Assembly (NCBI GenBank): GCA_902625325.1
Contig: CACOAW010000003.1
Location: 83,097-147,096 of the forward strand
Length of the DNA: 64,000 nt
From: an uncultured Candidatus Poseidoniales archaeon
GTDB taxonomy: Archaea > Thermoplasmatota > Poseidoniia > Poseidoniales > Thalassarchaeaceae
Direction: 5' to 3'
Made by a program: the position numbers and the translations under genes. The notes beneath the pieces were generated by a model. It did no database searches. It saw only the letters and a list, made by a program, of their open reading frames with translations, and was not told the DNA's origin. This document shows, piece after piece, positions 14,493-23,871 of the stretch (its first letter is position 1; each line of letters opens with the position of its first letter).

Positions 14493-17174
14493 TCAATCTT
14501 CTTCTAGGCTCATCATCGATCTTGCCCCGACTCCAATCGAGGCTATCGATGCCACATACAACGCTGCTATCGCCATGTGTACATAGCTTAGCGGTGCTCC
14601 GGCTTCCCCTCCGAAGTTCGTCCAACCAAACATGCCCATATTGTCGGTTACTTGGGCCCTGTAAGTTGCTGCATCATCGTCACTTATTTCGTTGAAAACG
14701 TGTATCTCGAAAACCGGCATCGATTCAGTACTGTTTTCAGATAGATCTGGATTAAGGTTGCCAGGGCCGCGGGTATCCAAGTGGAAGGTTACCTTCACTT
14801 TCCCGTACATGATCGCAGTTGTAATCGGTTCGACCTTCAGGTCTATGTCCGCGGCAAGGTAGACGGGAAGGGCTCCTGGCAATACATCAACGTAGGATCC
14901 CGCACCAAGCAACTTTCCTTGTATCTGGGAATTAGATGGATCCAATTGTACCTTGTGCTCGACCATATCGATTCCTTTGTACTCGCTTTCGCTACCAACT
15001 TCAGATGTAGCTATCGCATACCCTGCGACGTTGAAGTTGAATGGGTCATTGGGGGACGCCAGAGACCCAACAGTCCCCATCAATGAGGTGACATCATTAC
15101 CCGCATGGGAAGATAATAATCCATTTGCACCGGATTCCCTGTGGGGCGCTCTCCAGGTGAGGTGTTCGGTCATACCGTAAACCTGACCATCCTCGCAGGG
15201 TATGTCATACCCCATGAAATCCCCATTTGAGTCATAATCATAGTCACAAAGGCCGTTTCCGTCGGAGTTAATGTACCCCTGGGCCATCCTCTGACCCATG
15301 GTTTCTCCCTTTGTGCTCATCTTGTACACCGAGTAGTCTCCTGTGCTGATTCCCCCCGATCCGTAATAGGTTGCATTTGTCTCTAGGCTGGTCCAAGGGA
15401 AGATTCCGAAGAAATCACTTACAGCATCGTTCCAACCGTATAACCAACTGCTAATGGGCATGGAGTAATATGGTGTGTTTCCAGTTACGAAGTTTAGGAG
15501 GACGGGCATCACAGTGTCGAAGTAGAAATTTGACACCCAATCCCTCAAGGCTGCTGCCTCTTGAATTCTGATTCCGTAAAGATTTGCCACGTAACCGTCA
15601 TCCCACGTGTGTTGCACACCCTCGGAATCCGGTAATGTCATCCCAGAGAGTTCGCCGTACATGAACAGGCCGCTGAATGAAGTCTTAAGTCCGATTTCTG
15701 GATCGTTGAGGATGAAATCAGATTTTTCCATCGATAGGCCCGAATCTCCAACAAAACTGCCCCTGTTGAGTCCTATGGGGATGTAGATTCCACCCAGTGG
15801 GTCATAATCGCCGAACGCTGTCAGCCACCATTGGTCGGAAACCATCGTGCCGTTTCCTCCCGCGAGAATTAGCTCGAATTCAGTAGGCGATCCAGTAAGG
15901 CCGAGGCCCACCCAGGGCTCAACATAATTTGCGAGGCTTGAAATCTTGAGCAGATCTAGGTTGTAGGTCGTCATTGCTCCGAAGAAGTCAGAACTCTGAA
16001 GTGGCAGGAGGAGCCCCACGACCATCCCTGGCAGCGGAATCCCACCGACCTCGAATGACGTTAGAAGGCCAACGCTATCGTTGAACAGGAGATTTTCCAG
16101 AGTCCCTGGGTCTTGTATTAGCAACCCGCTGACTGCGTTTAACCTCTCCTTGAGTTGAGGTGTTTGTGGGCTTATCTCTGCACCGCCTCCATGCCCCACG
16201 AATTTCGGGACTACCATGGAATAGATTGCAGCGTCTATTTGGAGGAATTGGGCATTGTCCTTGAAACCGAGGAGATGTGCCCTAGAGGTAGAGTTCCCAA
16301 TGCACTCAGTAAATGGGGCTTCGTCCATACTCAAGCAGGGAGCGCCAAGGCCTGCAACCAAAACAGGGCCAATGTCACAAGTTATTCCGATGCAGTTTCC
16401 ATGGCCGTCATTGGCGTTATAGAATATACCCTTTATTTCCTCGGTGGTGATATTTCCAATTTCTAGCGGGTGGTCGTACAGTTCGTCTATACCTAGTGAT
16501 TGGTAGGTACTAACGATTAGGCCTTCCTCAGCGGACATATCGCCGAATCTGCCCCCGCCAGATGCAGCAGCAATGTCTGCAACTTCGTCTGATGCCCATA
16601 TGCTGGGAGCCCTGTTGGATAAATCGAACTCAATCATCTGGGCCGCGAACATCGCCTTGGCGAAGATCTCGCCGTATTCTATGCCCTGTCCCATGCCAGC
16701 GATTCTTTGAGTGTTCCAGAGGATGTTTATTTGATTGACTACTGTATCTCCTGAAACGGATTCCTCCCCCTCCCAAGTGCAATCCCCACACCATTCGAAG
16801 GTCTCGTATCCTGAATATGTGATTGAACCTTCCTCGTAGTCATATTCTAAGACTTCTCTTGTCGTGTTTTCGTAGTAAATAAAGGGACCAACTCTCTCGT
16901 AGGAGGGTTCCGCTGTCCCAGCGAGTACCTCATCCAGATTCGAAACTGAGTTCGCAAAGTACGCTTTGGTTCCTGAGGAATTAATCCAATCGTCGTCGAA
17001 ATCGGCGGTGTAATCCCGATTACCATCATCGTCTAAACCATCGTAACCGTCGTTTACCGTTTCTTCCACTGAATCCTTGATTACTCCGTCCAGGACCCCA
17101 GAGGCTCCGACTCCCACGTTCATCAATAGGAGAATTACTCCAACACTCAATGCAATATTCCCGTTGTTTGCCAT
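14493..17174 (-). CDS. CD36/LIMP-2-like two-TM surface protein
   Basis: Numbered from ATG 17174 (preceded by GAGTGA; ATG 17210 is less likely), this 893-aa protein has one TM at each end (about 7-27 and 866-884) and a large ectodomain, the CD36 topology. Residues 75-102 carry the CD36 signature: NSVSNLDEVLAG, then PSYERVGPFIYYE, where CD36 has NPxEVxxG...EVGPYxY. A beta-hairpin region SITYSGYETFEW follows, as in the family. Near the C-terminus, AGYAIATSEVG and KGIDMVEHKVQLDP align with the family's PHFLYA...GLxP...HxxYLDIEP block. It is about 400 aa longer than human CD36 (472 aa), with insertions. Eukaryotic CD36 proteins take up lipids or bind ligands; a lipid-uptake role here is inference. 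Confidence 0.65.
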   Translation of the reverse strand: MANNGNIALSVGVILLLMNVGVGASGVLDGVIKDSVEETVNDGYDGLDDDGNRDYTADFDDDWINSSGTKAYFANSVSNLDEVLAGTAEPSYERVGPFIYYENTTREVLEYDYEEGSITYSGYETFEWCGDCTWEGEESVSGDTVVNQINILWNTQRIAGMGQGIEYGEIFAKAMFAAQMIEFDLSNRAPSIWASDEVADIAAASGGGRFGDMSAEEGLIVSTYQSLGIDELYDHPLEIGNITTEEIKGIFYNANDGHGNCIGITCDIGPVLVAGLGAPCLSMDEAPFTECIGNSTSRAHLLGFKDNAQFLQIDAAIYSMVVPKFVGHGGGAEISPQTPQLKERLNAVSGLLIQDPGTLENLLFNDSVGLLTSFEVGGIPLPGMVVGLLLPLQSSDFFGAMTTYNLDLLKISSLANYVEPWVGLGLTGSPTEFELILAGGNGTMVSDQWWLTAFGDYDPLGGIYIPIGLNRGSFVGDSGLSMEKSDFILNDPEIGLKTSFSGLFMYGELSGMTLPDSEGVQHTWDDGYVANLYGIRIQEAAALRDWVSNFYFDTVMPVLLNFVTGNTPYYSMPISSWLYGWNDAVSDFFGIFPWTSLETNATYYGSGGISTGDYSVYKMSTKGETMGQRMAQGYINSDGNGLCDYDYDSNGDFMGYDIPCEDGQVYGMTEHLTWRAPHRESGANGLLSSHAGNDVTSLMGTVGSLASPNDPFNFNVAGYAIATSEVGSESEYKGIDMVEHKVQLDPSNSQIQGKLLGAGSYVDVLPGALPVYLAADIDLKVEPITTAIMYGKVKVTFHLDTRGPGNLNPDLSENSTESMPVFEIHVFNEISDDDAATYRAQVTDNMGMFGWTNFGGEAGAPLSYVHMAIAALYVASIASIGVGARSMMSLEED

Positions 17175-17313
17175 AGTTTCACTCGGCCCGCCGAAAAGGA
17201 ACACAGGCATAAAGCATTACACTAGGTTTAGTTTCGAACACCTGCTTCCTTCTGATTTACTAACATCGCATAGACAAGGTTCATTTCGACATTCGCGGAC
17301 GATAACCTCAGGG

Positions 17314-17457: not shown

Positions 17458-17471
17458 CAGAGGATTTTGTG

Positions 17472-18407
17472 ATGAGTGCATCGATTAGAGTTCCATTGAT
17501 GATTATGGTCGTCTATTTCCTTAGTCTCTGGTCAGGAGTAGCAGCAGTCCAAGCCCAGACCTCGCCTGATGTTTCTCTTACCTGTGACCAACCAGCCCCG
17601 ATCGAGGTTTATCCTGGGGCTTTGAGGTCCACAATCATATACTGCACGCTCACAAACCCGACCACTTTCTCGGAGAAGGTCGATCTAACGTATCAACAGG
17701 GAATCATCTCAGTAGCGGGTCCTGGCTCAGCAACAGTACCCCCAGGGGACACATCCTTCCAAGTTGCTGCTAGGGCAGACCTGAGGCAACCGGAAGGCCA
17801 GCAAGTGGTAACGATAACCGCTACTGTGACCCAGTGGAATGGAGCTCCTGTTACTGCAGCTACCTCTCCAACAGAAGCCAAGGTGATGACCGTATTCAAG
17901 CAATTCAGCAGACTAAGAGTAGGAGCCGAATTGGCTTTCATCCAACTCAGGCCTAAGGTCGACTACACTTTAGTCTTCGATGTTTACAACGATGGAAACG
18001 CTAGGGACAAATTCAACGTTGAGATCCAGAATTACGACGAGATGATTGACGAGGGCTTCCAACTCAGTTTACCGCTGATTTCTCAGGAGATAGACTCCCT
18101 TGCTCCACCGGAGAAGTTCAGGGTGCAGATGAGGACGCCCAAGAACCAAGGATGGACTGACAAGTACTTCTCGTTACAGTTCAAGGCCACTTCCGAGTAC
18201 TCGGTCAGATCCGAAGGCGTCCCCAACTATCAGATTCAGGTTATGACCATCTACATCAGAGGCGTGTACCTGCCAGGATTCGAACTTGTGGGGACTGCAA
18301 TGATGGCGGCACTGGCAGGTGCGGCCATCGGCAGAAAGAACAGAGATAACCGGATTTCCGTGGATGAAGACGGGAAGGTCATCCCGGTGGACAACCGTCT
18401 TTTCTAG
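17472..18407 (+). CDS. Secreted, C-terminally anchored beta-sandwich protein, unknown
   Basis: A signal peptide (about residues 8-30, ending VQAQ) is followed by beta-rich sequence. The repeats of 'NPTTFSEKVDL' and 'NDGNARDKFNVEIQNYDE' resemble the NEW3/CARDB-like modules of archaeal surface proteins. A hydrophobic segment (LPGFELVGTAMMAALAGAAI) near the C-terminus precedes a basic KNRDNR tail, so the bulk is outside. ATG at 17472 directly follows a GTG in frame and is the likelier start. It sits with the following membrane protein, both on the plus strand with 74 bp between. Function not recognised. Confidence 0.8.
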   Translation: MSASIRVPLMIMVVYFLSLWSGVAAVQAQTSPDVSLTCDQPAPIEVYPGALRSTIIYCTLTNPTTFSEKVDLTYQQGIISVAGPGSATVPPGDTSFQVAARADLRQPEGQQVVTITATVTQWNGAPVTAATSPTEAKVMTVFKQFSRLRVGAELAFIQLRPKVDYTLVFDVYNDGNARDKFNVEIQNYDEMIDEGFQLSLPLISQEIDSLAPPEKFRVQMRTPKNQGWTDKYFSLQFKATSEYSVRSEGVPNYQIQVMTIYIRGVYLPGFELVGTAMMAALAGAAIGRKNRDNRISVDEDGKVIPVDNRLF

Positions 18408-18481: not shown

Positions 18482-19729
18482 ATGAGTGAAGGTGGACTGC
18501 TAGAGAAGGCGGCTGAGCAGAACCCCAGCCAAACGGTTCTTTTAGCAGAGCATCACACTCCACAGACAAGCACCGTTGGAGTGGGAGAGGCCCTCAAGAC
18601 AGTTGCGCTGTTCGGGATTATTCCTGTCCTAATAGCACGAATTCTACTGGTCTATCTCCCTGGAGATGAACTAATTATCCCCATAATTGGGACTTCTTTG
18701 GTCATGGTCGTAGTGTTCCTGTCGTCCCTAGCCGTAGTTTTGTGGAGATTGGGTGTATTCTCCATTTCCAGTTCCGGTTTTTCCCTATCAGGAACCAGCG
18801 CTGCCGCATCCTCAGTAGTCGCAATCTCCTACATAATGATGCTAATTTTTCCGCTGATTTTAGGTGCCTTGCTAGAGGGCGAACTTTCGGTTGGGCAGGT
18901 TGAGTACAGCGAGGATGGCGAGTCAATCACCATCAAGGTCCTCCAGAACACTATCTCAGACAAGGACATGGAGGCTTCCATAATCATATTTCAGGCTGGG
19001 CAGCAAGTATGGTCCTCTACTGCAAACTTCTCCATAGACAGTGGAAAGGGAGAGGGCGAGATCACCATATTAGTCGACGATTTCTATTCCACTAATGCTC
19101 TTCCAGACTCCCCTTACACAATGGAACTGACCATAGATGGGGATAGTTCAACCAGAGATTTAACCTACAGCCAGATTACTTGGGATACAACCCAGTGGAC
19201 CGGAGCAGATGCCCTCTCAAGGGATATTACAGGCGTTGAAGGCCTGGCATCTGGAGTTGTAAAGGAGGATCCAGATCGGTGCAGTGGCGATGCAGATAAC
19301 TGTCTGGTTGGAGTAGTCATGTCAGCTTGGTCCGGACTTGACACCGGTGCAGATAAGCCCGCAAGGATGCCTTTCGCCGACTACACTGTAGAGGCCGTTC
19401 TCATGGAGGGGAATGACGTGGCGATAGCCTATCCTACAATCTCGGTGAGCAACACAGAAGCATCATGGGACTCCGAAGGAGGGATTTTTGGAACTGGATC
19501 AGGAACTTGGGGGGAATACGGATCAGAATTCGCGATGGAAGGATCTGTCTTTGATGCAACCTTCGGAAAGTACGTACCTCGTGACGAATTCGATTCCGCT
19601 GGTGACTATGGTTGCTACTCGTTCACAGTAACCGTCACACAAGGGGAATCGCAGATATCCGACACCTCGTACTACGATTACAGTACCAGCAATTCGAACG
19701 ACATATGGGAAGCTGTGTCAGTTTGCTAG
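18482..19729 (+). CDS. Membrane protein with three TM segments and a large extracellular domain, unknown
   Basis: A GAGGGA ribosome site precedes the ATG. Residues about 35-57, 62-88 and 98-126 are strong TM segments (for example LIIPIIGTSLVMVVVFL, VVAISYIMMLIFPLILG). The remaining 290 residues are acidic and beta-rich, with two Cys close together in DRCSGDADNCLVGV and two more near the C-terminus. No catalytic motif was seen. It ends 2 bp before the stop of the convergent ABC ATPase gene. Function unknown. Confidence 0.8.
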   Translation: MSEGGLLEKAAEQNPSQTVLLAEHHTPQTSTVGVGEALKTVALFGIIPVLIARILLVYLPGDELIIPIIGTSLVMVVVFLSSLAVVLWRLGVFSISSSGFSLSGTSAAASSVVAISYIMMLIFPLILGALLEGELSVGQVEYSEDGESITIKVLQNTISDKDMEASIIIFQAGQQVWSSTANFSIDSGKGEGEITILVDDFYSTNALPDSPYTMELTIDGDSSTRDLTYSQITWDTTQWTGADALSRDITGVEGLASGVVKEDPDRCSGDADNCLVGVVMSAWSGLDTGADKPARMPFADYTVEAVLMEGNDVAIAYPTISVSNTEASWDSEGGIFGTGSGTWGEYGSEFAMEGSVFDATFGKYVPRDEFDSAGDYGCYSFTVTVTQGESQISDTSYYDYSTSNSNDIWEAVSVC

Positions 19730-19731
19730 AC

Positions 19732-20469
19732 TCAGTCATTTATGCTGGAGAGGAAATCTCTCATCCTGTCCGTTTTCGGATTATCTATTATGGATGATTC
19801 ACCCTCCTCTGCAATAAGGCCCTGATCCATGTATATCACACGATCAGCAACGTCTCTGGCGAATCCTATCTCATGGGTGACCACTACCATGGTCATCCCT
19901 TCCTCAGCCAAACCCTGTATGGTCTCAAGAACGGAACCGATTAGTTCTGGGTCTAGGGCACTGGTGGGCTCGTCAAAGAGCATGACCTCTGGCTTCATCG
20001 CAAGTGCCCTTGCGATAGCCACCCTCTGCTTCTGGCCACCAGATAGGTTTCCGGGATAGGCATCAACCCTATCGAGCATATCGACCCTCTCAAGAACACT
20101 GCTGGCATGGACGATAGCGTCCTCCTTGCTCATCCCCCTTACATGAATTAGCCCAAGAGAAACATTGTCTATCACCCTCAAGTGAGAGAACAACTCGAAA
20201 GATTGGAAGACCATACCGATCCTAGAACGAACACCATTAACATCAGCAGCAGGGGTGTTGATTCTTTCTCCCTTCAAACTCACGATGCCTTGGGTGGGTT
20301 CGATCAGACGGTTGATACATCTAAGGACGGTAGATTTGCCACTTCCAGATGAGCCAATAATAGCCAATGACTCCCCTTCCTGTACTTCGAACGAGACTCC
20401 TCTGACCGCATGTACCCCTCCAACATACGTCTTCTCCATTTCTTCAACGCTGAGGATAATCTCTGACAA
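19732..20469 (-). CDS. Polar amino-acid ABC transporter ATP-binding protein (GlnQ/HisP type)
   Basis: This is the cytoplasmic ATPase of an amino-acid importer. Walker [10 protein letters not shown] is at residues 39-47, the signature [17 protein letters not shown], Walker [15 protein letters not shown] and the switch His in VVTHEIGFA are all present. Length (245 aa) is standard. The start is TTG, immediately after the TGA of the upstream permease gene. An in-frame ATG 10 codons later (MEKTYVGG) is less likely because the strand before it is conserved. It forms an operon with the permease; no substrate-binding protein gene is nearby. Confidence 0.96.
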
Positions 20470-22848
20470 TCAAGCACCTCCCGATATCCCTAAACCAGGA
20501 ATCCTAGTTCTTTCCTCAAGGTACCTGAGGAAGAGTGCTAGGGTCCATGTAATCAGGAAGTATGATATCAGCACCATGCCCCAAGTCCAGAAAACCTGGA
20601 AAGTAGTGGCGACAATTAACTTCCCCTGCCTTGTGATTTCAGCATAACCGATAATCATAGCTAGTGAAGAGTTCAGAACTAGGTTGACCATCTCGTTACC
20701 CAGAGGGGGTATGCAGATCCTGACAGCTTGGGGCATTACTACCAGCCTCATCGATTGCATGTAATTTAGCCCAATACTTCTACCAGCTTCCATCTGCCCC
20801 GAGGGGATTGCAGCGATAGCCCCTCTGATGGTCTCGCATTGGTATGCGCCCGAGTTCAAACCAAGAGCGAAAATCGCGCTGATGTATGCCCTATCCTCGA
20901 GAATCCCCCCAATCGGCCTACCATAGGCCAGCGATTCGGGATTCGTCTCGTATACAACGAAAATATCGGTGATGAAGTTGGAGTTGCCATTTAGGTATTC
21001 GAAGTCGAACAACATTAGCCCGGGGTCCTGCAATCTTCTCCCAAGCTCGAATCCGAAGTGTATGAACATGAACTGAACGAGCAATGGTGTGTTTCTGAAA
21101 ATGTCCGTGTATACCGTTGCAATCGTGTTCAATGGCCTGATGCTCCACGGATCGAGAGTGAAACTCACGTTGCTGAACTCAATTTCTCGTATGGAGAAGT
21201 CTCCATTGCATGAGAAAAATATGCTCCCCAATACGGCAATTCCAAGGCCCAGTAGAATCCAGAAAATTGCCCTAGGAGCCCCGATAGGAGAGTAGATGTG
21301 TTCCCAACCATCTAGGTTTAGGTCACTAATCTCGTTGAGATTATCGAGAATTCGATAAATCCCGATAAATATCAGAATTATCCCGATTGTACGAATAGCG
21401 ATAATGTTCAGTGGCTCACTGGCTGCAATTTGCAAGGACCTACCTCTACAGTAACCTAATGCGCCGCTGAAAGGATTGCCCAGATTCAATTTTCTACCAA
21501 ATCCAGTTGAGTTTATCGCTGAGATGGGAATTTGGAAAGCAAACCATAATGGCGAAACTACGAACATCAATAGAATCTGGAATCTATTGGTCTGAGCGAC
21601 ATTCTTGAGTGTAGTTGGGGATGTCTTTAACATTGAAAGGACTATTCCTAGGGAGAAACCCATTAGAATTCCAAAAATCACGATTTTAGCAGTCGCTACG
21701 AGTCCGTCCATCAATCTCTCTTTCGAGTAGTCGACGAATTGTCCGAAATCGTTGAAGTCAATCACCTCGAACCCGACGAACTCCTCTGATCCTGCGTTCT
21801 CTGTCCTGAGTACAACCCCTCCATCCCCCACGACAACCCCTCTGAAACCATCCAGCATAGCAAATCCATTGAACACCGTCTCATTCGAGACTGGAATCAT
21901 CTGCTGAGAGACTATATTCCCCCCGTCCAGACTGAGGGAGATGTAGCCTCCTGGACCATGTAGAATGAACTTAAATTGTCCAAGAACCTTCATACCAGAT
22001 ACTTCGAAGTCCAGATTCGAACCTCCAGATTCGAACTCATCCCCACCTCCCGGGGGGTATTCTCTTTCGATATCCACTGTACTCCAGACGAATCCTACGG
22101 GAACATTTCCTTCTCTTGACGACTTCAGAATGTGCCCTTCTTCTGAAATCGCGTATGCCCTAATCGTACTGAAGTATTCAACATCGATAATTGCCATCGT
22201 TGAAACCTCGCTAGGCGCATCTCTATACTCCCAGCTACTACCTCCGTCGGAGGTTGCAATTATTGCCCCGCTCTCTCCAGAAATAATTCCGTTTTCTGAA
22301 TCCAAAAATGATACACTGAGATAATTTCCCCCCTCTCCTTCGATTACTGAGTCGCATTCAGTGTCCCATTCCACTGTCATTGTGCAAGTCCAGACTTTAT
22401 TTCGCTCTATGACAACAAAACTATCATTCGCAGTGAGGGCAACGTCCTTGATATCGCCAAATATATCAGAACTTATATCCACCCAGAGGCCTTCTTTCAT
22501 CAGTAGGACAGTACCGCTATTTCCTGCTACGATTATTGATTCGTAACTAGAATCAGAAGAGGTTAGATCATGGCTAACTGACAATCCAGATTCAGACCAA
22601 GTTCTTCCTTCATCGATACTCCGGATCATTGTTCCTCCAGATCCGAATACCCAAATCTCGCCTCCTAGATACTCTGCGGTATACAGATTCTCCTCAGTCC
22701 CGCTGTCGACTACTTCCCACCCACTTCTGACCTCTTGAGCAGAAACTTCTCCAAATGAGAAAAGAAGGGCAATTAGTACGAGTGGGATTAGTAAATCTGC
22801 ACTACGCTTGCCCGTAGGGCCACTCCAGAGAGACGCTTCCGATGTCAC
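20470..22848 (-). CDS. Amino-acid ABC transporter permease fused to an extracellular Ycf48-like beta-propeller
   Basis: A GTG start leads into a signal-anchor (about residues 18-38), then about 330 residues of BNR/Ycf48-like propeller: IWVFGSGGTMIRSIDEGRTW, IIVAGNSGTVLLM, GIISGESGAIIATSDGGSSW, GVVVGDGGVVLRTENAG. From about residue 370 it is a HisM/AapQ-type permease with YTDIFRNTPLLVQFMFIHFG and the ATPase-contact EAA loop AGRSIGLNYMQSMRLVVMPQA. A long TM-containing insertion separates the first permease helix from the RNTPLLVQ helix, as in AapQ/BztB proteins. At 792 aa it is more than twice the usual permease length. It is followed directly by the ATPase gene. The import direction and amino-acid substrate are family knowledge; the propeller's role is unknown. 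Confidence 0.9.
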   Translation of the reverse strand: MTSEASLWSGPTGKRSADLLIPLVLIALLFSFGEVSAQEVRSGWEVVDSGTEENLYTAEYLGGEIWVFGSGGTMIRSIDEGRTWSESGLSVSHDLTSSDSSYESIIVAGNSGTVLLMKEGLWVDISSDIFGDIKDVALTANDSFVVIERNKVWTCTMTVEWDTECDSVIEGEGGNYLSVSFLDSENGIISGESGAIIATSDGGSSWEYRDAPSEVSTMAIIDVEYFSTIRAYAISEEGHILKSSREGNVPVGFVWSTVDIEREYPPGGGDEFESGGSNLDFEVSGMKVLGQFKFILHGPGGYISLSLDGGNIVSQQMIPVSNETVFNGFAMLDGFRGVVVGDGGVVLRTENAGSEEFVGFEVIDFNDFGQFVDYSKERLMDGLVATAKIVIFGILMGFSLGIVLSMLKTSPTTLKNVAQTNRFQILLMFVVSPLWFAFQIPISAINSTGFGRKLNLGNPFSGALGYCRGRSLQIAASEPLNIIAIRTIGIILIFIGIYRILDNLNEISDLNLDGWEHIYSPIGAPRAIFWILLGLGIAVLGSIFFSCNGDFSIREIEFSNVSFTLDPWSIRPLNTIATVYTDIFRNTPLLVQFMFIHFGFELGRRLQDPGLMLFDFEYLNGNSNFITDIFVVYETNPESLAYGRPIGGILEDRAYISAIFALGLNSGAYQCETIRGAIAAIPSGQMEAGRSIGLNYMQSMRLVVMPQAVRICIPPLGNEMVNLVLNSSLAMIIGYAEITRQGKLIVATTFQVFWTWGMVLISYFLITWTLALFLRYLEERTRIPGLGISGGA

Positions 22849-22959
22849 AATACCCGCCCTCTCGCTGGGCTGTAAGGATTTAGTCTAGTCTACTAGGAAA
22901 AATTTGACACAGAGACTCAATGGGCAATGTTGATGTCCGAACTTTGTTCGGGTTGGACC

Positions 22960-23871
22960 ATGACGGAATTATTGTACAGTGGCAAGGTAAAACAGGTTTG
23001 GAGCACGGATGATCCTGATATCATCGAGTTCAGGTACACGGATCAGATTTCAGTCTTCGACCAAGTCATTCCTAGTTTGATTCCGAGGAAGGGAGAGTCA
23101 TTGAATAGGGCATCTTGTCATTGGTTCGGTCTGATTGAGGATGAAGGAATTTGCAAGACTCACGTCATAGAGATGAATGCCCCAGACAGAGTTCTGGCGA
23201 GACGTTTTGATGTGATCAGAGAACCTGGTGCCATTCCCAGAGATGCAGAGAACTTCTTCGTCCCACTAGAAGTAATCTGTCGTCATTATCTGGCAGGTAC
23301 CGCATGGAGAAGATACCAGAGAGGAGAAGTAAAGTCTGAGGACTTCGGATTCGAAGCAGGAGAGGTGCTTGATGAGGGAGTCCGGCTTCCAGAGCCGTTC
23401 CTGGAAGTCTCCACTAAATTCGAAAAGTTCGATAGGAATCTGGATAGGGAGGAGGCATTGGAGATATCAAATTTGGATCCAGCAGAGCTTGACGCAATCC
23501 TAGCGATTGTCCTAGAGGTGGATTCGGTAATCGATAGAGAGACATCTAAGAGAGGACTTATCCATGTTGACGGTAAGAAGGAATTTGCTCTAGGAGAAGG
23601 TCGAGAGCCTATTCTGATAGACTCCTTTGGAACTCTCGATGAAGATCGATGGTGGGACGCCGATGCATATGAGGATGGAGAGATAGTACAGCTATCCAAG
23701 GAGTCTGTCAGAAAACACTACATCGAATCGGGGCACCATTCGGCACTATACGAAGCAAGACAATCTGGATCGCCCGAACCACCCATCCCCCCTCTGCCAG
23801 ATAGCATCATTGCCAGTACGGCTGAACTATACGCTAGTATGTTCCAGCGGCTTACTGGAGAGGCTCTTTGA
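22960..23871 (+). CDS. purC: SAICAR synthetase
   Basis: PurC joins CAIR and aspartate using ATP to form SAICAR in purine synthesis. The N-terminal strand LLYSGKVKQVW, KTHVIEMNAPDRVLARRFDVI, VPLEVICRHYLAGTAWRRY, STKFEKFDRNL and LIDSFGTLDEDRWW match the family in order. The frame opens at 22927, but ATG at 22960 (MTELLYSGKVK) gives the usual N-terminus. It is divergent from the ABC permease and coupled to the next gene by TGATG. Together with purE and guaAb the window holds scattered purine genes rather than one purine operon. Confidence 0.95.
   Translation: MTELLYSGKVKQVWSTDDPDIIEFRYTDQISVFDQVIPSLIPRKGESLNRASCHWFGLIEDEGICKTHVIEMNAPDRVLARRFDVIREPGAIPRDAENFFVPLEVICRHYLAGTAWRRYQRGEVKSEDFGFEAGEVLDEGVRLPEPFLEVSTKFEKFDRNLDREEALEISNLDPAELDAILAIVLEVDSVIDRETSKRGLIHVDGKKEFALGEGREPILIDSFGTLDEDRWWDADAYEDGEIVQLSKESVRKHYIESGHHSALYEARQSGSPEPPIPPLPDSIIASTAELYASMFQRLTGEAL

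Follow-up and report, generated by a model that had tools for sequence, protein, structure and literature searches.

The polar amino acid ABC importers of the PAAT/HAA type, among them GlnPQ, HisQMP and ArtQN, encode their permease beside their ATPase, and Ycf48 is a seven-bladed assembly factor of photosystem II (PSII). The locus described here shares the permease core family, the ATPase family and the gene pairing with these importers, but its permease carries an N-terminal beta-propeller instead of, or besides, substrate-binding domains (SBDs), together with a hydrophobic insert between the transmembrane segments TM1 and TM2. With Ycf48/HCF136, its best match in both sequence and structure, it has in common the propeller fold and Asp-box-like motifs, although it is archaeal, is fused to an ABC permease, shows about 16% identity in the structural comparison and lies far below the equivalog cut-off. 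GlnP-type permeases also bear an extracytoplasmic domain, and GlnPQ has tandem fused SBDs (accessible text of PMC8025302); here, in contrast, the fused domain is a propeller rather than a two-lobed SBD, and the solute-binding protein (SBP) is likely to be separate and circularly permuted. A circularly permuted, membrane-tethered SBP, as we propose for the partner of the fusion, has been described in TpMglB-2 (Tp0684), whose authors regarded the topology as a possible adaptation to anchoring. TpMglB-2 binds glucose and was proposed as 'Type Ic' or 'Cluster Bc', whereas the SBP considered here is of family 3 (SBP_bac_3) and its likely partner is a permease that bears a propeller (accessible text of PMC4990184).

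Within the literature searched we found no propeller-permease fusion in print, nor any report of a Ycf48-type propeller that is archaeal or is combined with an ABC permease. The words 'propeller' and 'permease' are absent from the main text of PMC11237513 and from the accessible part of the main text of PMC6461757, and 'propeller' is absent from the accessible part of the main text of PMC9723583.

The window, by which we mean the whole 64,000-nucleotide stretch of DNA that was analysed, carries the features collected in Table 1. An earlier note on this DNA had read a beta-propeller and a permease in one protein, followed directly by an ATPase. Pfam, NCBIfam and AlphaFold2 confirm this arrangement on the minus strand, and the PF14870 and PF00528 matches share one reading frame. 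The N-terminus, which the note had called a signal-anchor, is better read as a signal peptide that is probably cleavable, given a hydrophobic run that is followed by VSAQ.

Table 1. Coordinates of the propeller-permease locus in the window (aa, residues of the fusion protein).
Feature	Position	Strand	Evidence
ABC ATPase, GlnQ-like, TTG start	19732..20469	-	Pfam/NCBIfam; begins on the base after the fusion stop
Propeller-permease fusion gene, 792 aa, GTG start	20470..22848	-	ORF (GTG at 22848, stop codon 20472-20470), Pfam and NCBIfam; matches in genomes of the order
Permease core, polar amino acid family, aa 566-792	20473..21153	-	PF00528, identity to relatives, PDB 4yms
Extra hydrophobic insert between permease TM1 and TM2, about aa 413-565	21154..21612	-	Occupancy and length in relatives
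Extracytoplasmic Ycf48-like beta-propeller, seven strand groups	21769..22737	-	PF14870, AlphaFold2 model, Foldseek
Probable signal peptide region, aa 1-37, ending ...VSAQ	22738..22848	-	Sequence, model helix 17-31, hydrophobic N-terminus of relatives
Divergent intergenic region, 78 bp	22849..22926		Putatively permuted SBP gene here in 17/79 fetched relatives (fusion-purC gap)
purC, divergent landmark outside the transporter	22927..23871	+	Conserved in 67/79 loci

The stretch of about 330 Ycf48/BNR-like residues that the note had described is borne out as a propeller at about residues 38-360 by PF14870, AlphaFold2 and Foldseek. The PSII_BNR/YCF48 profile (PF14870) matches residues 161-242 only, with 43.7 bits against a gathering cut-off of 27, and the Ycf48 equivalog NF010237 gives 48.8 of the 326 bits required. 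In the AlphaFold2 model, built with 60 sequences, 10-residue blocks have pLDDT values of 79-91 over residues 41-350, with the exception of residues 261-280 (68-70), and the strands form seven groups as judged by eye. The 12 best PDB rows in a Foldseek search with the fusion model are all Ycf48-type chains (best E 9.6e-14, 16% identity), one of them within a photosystem assembly complex. Ycf48 is not among the 50 rows listed by VIA-align, a method that does not discriminate between propeller families. Pfam finds no SBP_bac_3 domain in the fusion, and both the model and the fold search give a propeller over this region rather than a two-lobed SBD. The fusion is the sole PF14870 match in the window genome, the assembly of which is 79% complete, with no free-standing Ycf48-like protein and no propeller on any other permease detected by this profile. 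No photosystem is expected in these archaea.

The permease, assigned by the note to a HisM/AapQ type, is recovered by PF00528 and NCBIfam as GlnP/HisM-type. BPD_transp_1 (PF00528) matches residues 572-782 (E 9.7e-15) and TIGR01726 scores 53.8 bits against a cut-off of 42.2. The best NCBIfam permease model is GlnP, at 126 bits against an equivalog cut-off of 303, and the named equivalogs (GlnP, HisM and ArtQ) all stay below their cut-offs. The permease chain of PDB 4yms, which we take to be ArtQN, matches with an E value of 3e-28. For the ATPase, GlnQ is the best NCBIfam model, followed by its relatives, with 283 bits and an equivalog cut-off of 379. The note had also proposed a structure prediction of the propeller placed over the permease; AlphaFold2 gave a good propeller and a permease part of low confidence.

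Of the 318 genomes of the order, 86 carry the fusion (E <= 1e-30); they all belong to family f1 (Ca. Thalassarchaeaceae, MGIIb) and represent six genera. Members of this family are marine heterotrophs that have not been cultured. Outside the order, a shorter fusion of 606-619 aa, lacking the extra membrane insert, is encoded in four genomes of f3, another family of the same class; judged from its class, f3 would be Marine Group III. The search for the same fusion elsewhere, which the note had suggested, was thus productive. In the matches listed, another 42 genomes from the phylum align with the permease part alone, mostly in frames of 150-275 aa.

The best 80 of 94 relatives were kept, and 79 loci were fetched. 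The fusion is a single ORF of 682-863 aa in 70/70 relatives examined. Seven of the nine loci outside this count are cut by a contig end; the others are L135, which is uncut and 692 aa long, and L070, whose frame is broken, as in no other copy seen. The relatives include AG- isolates, unlabelled as MAGs, that are presumably single-cell genomes. An ATPase follows the fusion in 78 of the 79 fetched loci, and the contig ends there in the remaining one. Eight of the 12 loci without purC are likewise truncated by a contig end. The fusion is real, conserved and unusual.

Its parts diverge at different rates. In an alignment of 59 loci with the window (A3; six of the 70 were dropped for unread letters, X, and five as near-duplicates by eye), mean identity to the window is 77% for the permease core and 46% for the propeller, and the corresponding values for the four f3 fusions are 63% and 28%. 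Divergence is therefore faster in the propeller than in the permease core. Across 64 fusions 18 propeller residues are invariant, of which 11 are Gly and four are Trp, and Arg230 and Arg209 are kept in 62 and 60, respectively. The insert varies in length within the family, with a mean identity there of 38%, and its occupancy in the four f3 fusions is 10%.

We then consider the binding proteins. SBP_bac_3 matches in the window genome are confined to contigs C2 and C6, whereas the window belongs to C3, so the genome-wide search for a lone binding protein gene proposed by the note located candidates away from the locus. As the genome is 79% complete, an SBP unseen in it is possible. Contig C6 carries an Aap-like ('Aap-type') operon with an AapJ-type SBP, two permeases and an ATPase. 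On contig C2 (L149:956-4099) a 1047-aa lipoprotein has an N-terminal SBP_bac_3 domain and then two LivJ-type domains; downstream of it come genes for a LivMH-like permease of 1380 aa and for two ATPases (named LivG and LivF by eye). In its SBP_bac_3 domain the profile halves occur in reversed order. A reading of the C2 protein as a lone SBP was dropped in view of the LIV operon to which its gene belongs.

All four fetched f3 fusion loci encode, divergently from the fusion, an SBP of 319-331 aa that Pfam assigns to SBP_bac_3, with the profile starting at about residue 177 (this reading of neighbourhoods covered f3, L158, L160, G016 and G161 and left out L159, in G470). Among family relatives, a divergent gene of 325-331 aa lies between the fusion and purC in 7 of 20 fetched neighbourhoods. 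All seven products are SBP_bac_3 proteins, in which the end of the profile matches residues 60-147 in two and its start matches residues 181-287 in five; across the set these positions therefore indicate a permuted order. A profile built from these neighbour SBPs gave 17 strong matches in 148 genomes of the family (E 1e-115 or better; next best 3e-20). All 17 adjoin a fusion gene, in genera g12, g14 and g17, and none of the strong matches is in the window genus. The statement in the note that no binding protein is nearby thus holds for the window genome and fails for the system generally, in which an SBP adjoins the fusion in f3 and in 17 genomes of the family.

Circular permutation was examined by aligning each query to a doubled canonical SBP (that of L160, and also the L158 domain) and to a single copy. 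With L160 doubled, each of the five queries (the four f3 SBPs and the LIV receptor domain) gives an uninterrupted alignment that spans the junction and scores more bits than any single-copy piece. L154 scores 79.7 bits against the doubled sequence, with single-copy pieces of 53.5 and 48.1, and the LIV domain scores 84.0, with pieces of 72.8 and 33.5. The doubled L158 domain gave a junction-crossing match for only two of the five queries. Three neighbour SBPs of the family were tried and matched neither the L160 nor the L158 canonical SBP, so that the evidence for their putative permutation is the order of the Pfam matches. The f3 SBPs also align with the doubled LIV domain in one piece that crosses the junction (39-42% identity over 279-295 columns), and hence the f3 SBPs and the LIV domain are permuted relative to each other as well. 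Among the window-genome SBPs compared, this LIV N-terminal domain is the best homologue of the f3 SBPs; the three neighbour SBPs reach only 27-30% identity to it, over parts of their length.

The YPPFE, TxTxxR and GTTS motifs and the lobe-2 Asp of the canonical L160 SBP, which have ligand-binding roles, are kept in three LIV rows and in the three readable f3 rows (L156, rotated at the wrong place, is excluded from this comparison); f3 row L155 also reads YPPFE. In the five neighbour SBPs examined TxTxxR and YPPFE are gone, and the lobe-2 Asp is gone in four. Because most ligand motifs are lost in these five, the family neighbour SBPs may no longer bind amino acids. A fold search with a neighbour-SBP model gave, among the 50 rows listed, TM-scores of at most 0.48 by target length and 0.33 by query length; the rows included HisG and several SBPs and no clear match, the method being uninformative for a permuted chain. 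Separately, L129:4904-5884 and 16 similar loci represent an SBP beside the fusion whose function may have changed, to judge from the motifs of five rows.

The fusion and the permuted LIV domain occur together. In the 318 genomes of the order, 71 have both, 15 the fusion only, seven the domain only and 225 neither, counts that are uncorrected for shared ancestry. Since presence of the LIV operon itself needed controlling, we repeated the count in the 110 genomes with a LIV receptor, where the domain accompanies the fusion in 66 of 68 genomes and is present in 7 of the 42 that lack the fusion, again uncorrected for shared ancestry. The cut-offs were E 1e-40 for the permuted domain and the LIV receptor and E 1e-30 for the fusion. 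We excluded nine genomes whose LIV matches were weaker (1e-20 to 1e-40); eight of them lack both fusion and domain and one (G159) has both. In the two misses, G006 and G024, the receptor matches lack the N-terminal part, and that of G006 begins at base 1 of its contig. Among genomes with the domain and no detected fusion, five (G018, G020, G080, G100 and G101) belong to fusion-bearing genera and are 45-81% complete, and two (G056 and G144) belong to genera otherwise without both. The association of the fusion with the permuted LIV domain is strong.

Receptors that lack the domain differ in build. Two members of the window genus (G016 and G161) have no fusion, and their LIV receptor stands at the same purM-adjacent place without the permuted domain, in frames of 801 and 803 aa. 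Genus g9 has a single LivJ in frames of about 394 aa, and in genera g2 and g3 of family f2 the frames are mostly near 750-768 aa, with other lengths too. A purine-linked function, considered in view of the neighbouring purC and purM, was rejected, as purM adjoins the LIV operon in G016 and G161 even without the permuted domain.

On a tree of 64 fusion proteins, in which 16 of the 17 SBP-flanked family fusions are represented, the presence of an adjacent SBP needs four changes of state (20 labelled rows, with a long-branch warning). One reading of these data is an ancestral SBP-fusion-ATPase unit, from which the adjacent SBP was lost in several lineages, with a homologous permuted domain grafted onto the LIV receptor, the order of these events being presumed. 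In the lineage of the window the receptor appears to have moved into the LIV receptor.

We give about even credence to a model in which the locus encodes an SBP-dependent PAAT importer whose permease-borne propeller most likely docks a tethered, permuted SBP, located in the window genome within the LIV receptor. The transporter would be a type I polar amino acid importer with an extra extracytoplasmic domain, energised by the ATPase of the adjacent gene. As there is a single permease gene, the fusion permease is expected to form a homodimer, and each transporter would then bear two propellers. A circularly permuted family-3 SBP would deliver the substrate, presumably amino acids. In f3 this SBP would still be encoded divergently beside the fusion, with a diverged homologue likewise placed in 17 Thalassarchaeaceae genomes, whereas in the window genome it would have become the N-terminal domain of the 1047-aa LIV-operon lipoprotein receptor. 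Synteny, homology and co-occurrence suggest that the permuted domain feeds the propeller-permease. The propeller would serve as a platform on which the permuted, membrane-tethered SBP docks and is kept above the translocation path. A more specific version, which we put forward tentatively, is that the composite LIV lipoprotein serves two transporters, its LivJ domains supplying LivMH with branched-chain ligands and its permuted family-3 domain supplying the propeller-permease with polar amino acids, with the propeller as a dedicated docking tower.

The note had suggested three possible roles for the propeller: substrate capture, docking of a binding protein and ligand sensing. That the propeller is itself the substrate receptor, replacing the SBP in this lineage, is to us decidedly improbable. 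It does sit where GlnP-type permeases bear fused substrate-binding domains (accessible text of PMC8025302), an SBD-permease fusion is seen in L158, and the window genus has no SBP gene adjacent to the fusion. However, an SBP adjoins the propeller fusion in 4/4 f3 loci and in 17 genomes of the family, the window genome retains a homologous SBP domain with the canonical motifs, and the propeller is less conserved than the permease core, its invariant residues being mostly Gly and Trp. We prefer a docking or scaffold role to that of a receptor, because a receptor should keep a conserved pocket and because SBPs coexist with the propeller. Of the roles suggested in the note, the comparative evidence thus favours docking and argues against substrate capture. 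An origin of the propeller as a substitute for a missing SBP is unlikely, since the f3 propeller coexists with an SBP and the homologous domain persists in the window genome. The propeller could instead be an assembly or stability domain outside transport, as Ycf48 is for photosystem II, which we regard as unlikely while noting that Ycf48 is the best fold and sequence match, that structures bound to a D1 peptide are among the PDB matches and that the low constraint on the propeller is compatible with a structural role. Against this, all 70 family fusions examined retain the propeller, as do those of f3, and most of the genomes concerned encode a permuted SBP too; in the window genome PF14870 occurs on the fusion and on no other permease.

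It is also rather unlikely, in our estimate, that the relocated permuted domain serves the LIV transporter alone and that the fusion uses either the C6 AapJ-type SBP or no SBP at all. The permuted domain does form part of a LIV operon that has its own permease, an AapJ-type SBP is present in the window genome, and seven genomes have the permuted domain and no detected fusion, but AapJ has its own permeases and ATPase alongside, a closer homologue of the permuted domain adjoins the fusion in f3, and in genomes without the fusion the domain is missing from 35 of 42 LIV receptors. Lastly, a propeller-permease fusion is unusual and the frame of L070 is broken, as might be expected of an assembly chimera or annotation artefact, but this carries a negligible probability: the relatives examined (70/70) have single ORFs in many independent assemblies and a diverged fusion occurs in another family, a conservation by which the chimera was ruled out. 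The chimera that the note had named as a way for its reading to fail is likewise at odds with these conserved single ORFs.

Ca. Thalassarchaeum betae is the type of family Ca. Thalassarchaeaceae, and a gain of an amino acid transporter was inferred for the ancestor that genera N1 and O share (accessible text of PMC6461757). The genes livK and aapJ are among the most highly transcribed in Thalassarchaeaceae (accessible text of PMC9723583). If the transcribed livK is the composite receptor and also serves the propeller-capped importer, the annotation of amino acid uptake would be incomplete, in a way that can be tested. The system offers a natural test of what circular permutation and tethering of an SBP do to its docking on a permease, and of the reason for which an ABC importer would gain a propeller. 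If true, the pairing of a relocated capture protein with a propeller-capped pump suggests a new way of coupling SBPs and permeases.

Some further observations concern neighbouring and related genes. In G356 a PAAT-like permease (L160:2528-3829) carries PKD domains at its N-terminus, with a canonical lipoprotein SBP encoded separately. It resembles the fusion in having a non-SBD N-terminal addition and a separate SBP, but the addition is PKD rather than a propeller and the SBP is canonical. The Aap-like permeases of the window genome (L031:4898-8904) contain additional hydrophobic segments and, at 774 and 561 aa, are unusually long. Downstream of the ATPase in the window lie genes at 14493-17210 (905 aa), 17469-18407 (a choice-of-anchor T protein) and 18482-19729 (415 aa), and these three recur beside the fusion in only part of the relatives. 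In L048 and L049 a gene convergent with the ATPase (L048:8840-10207 and L049:8718-10172) resembles glutamate dehydrogenase by eye. These two loci, together with L110, L124, L137 and L142, have a longer fusion of 863 aa with more insert, and no purC was seen at the locus.
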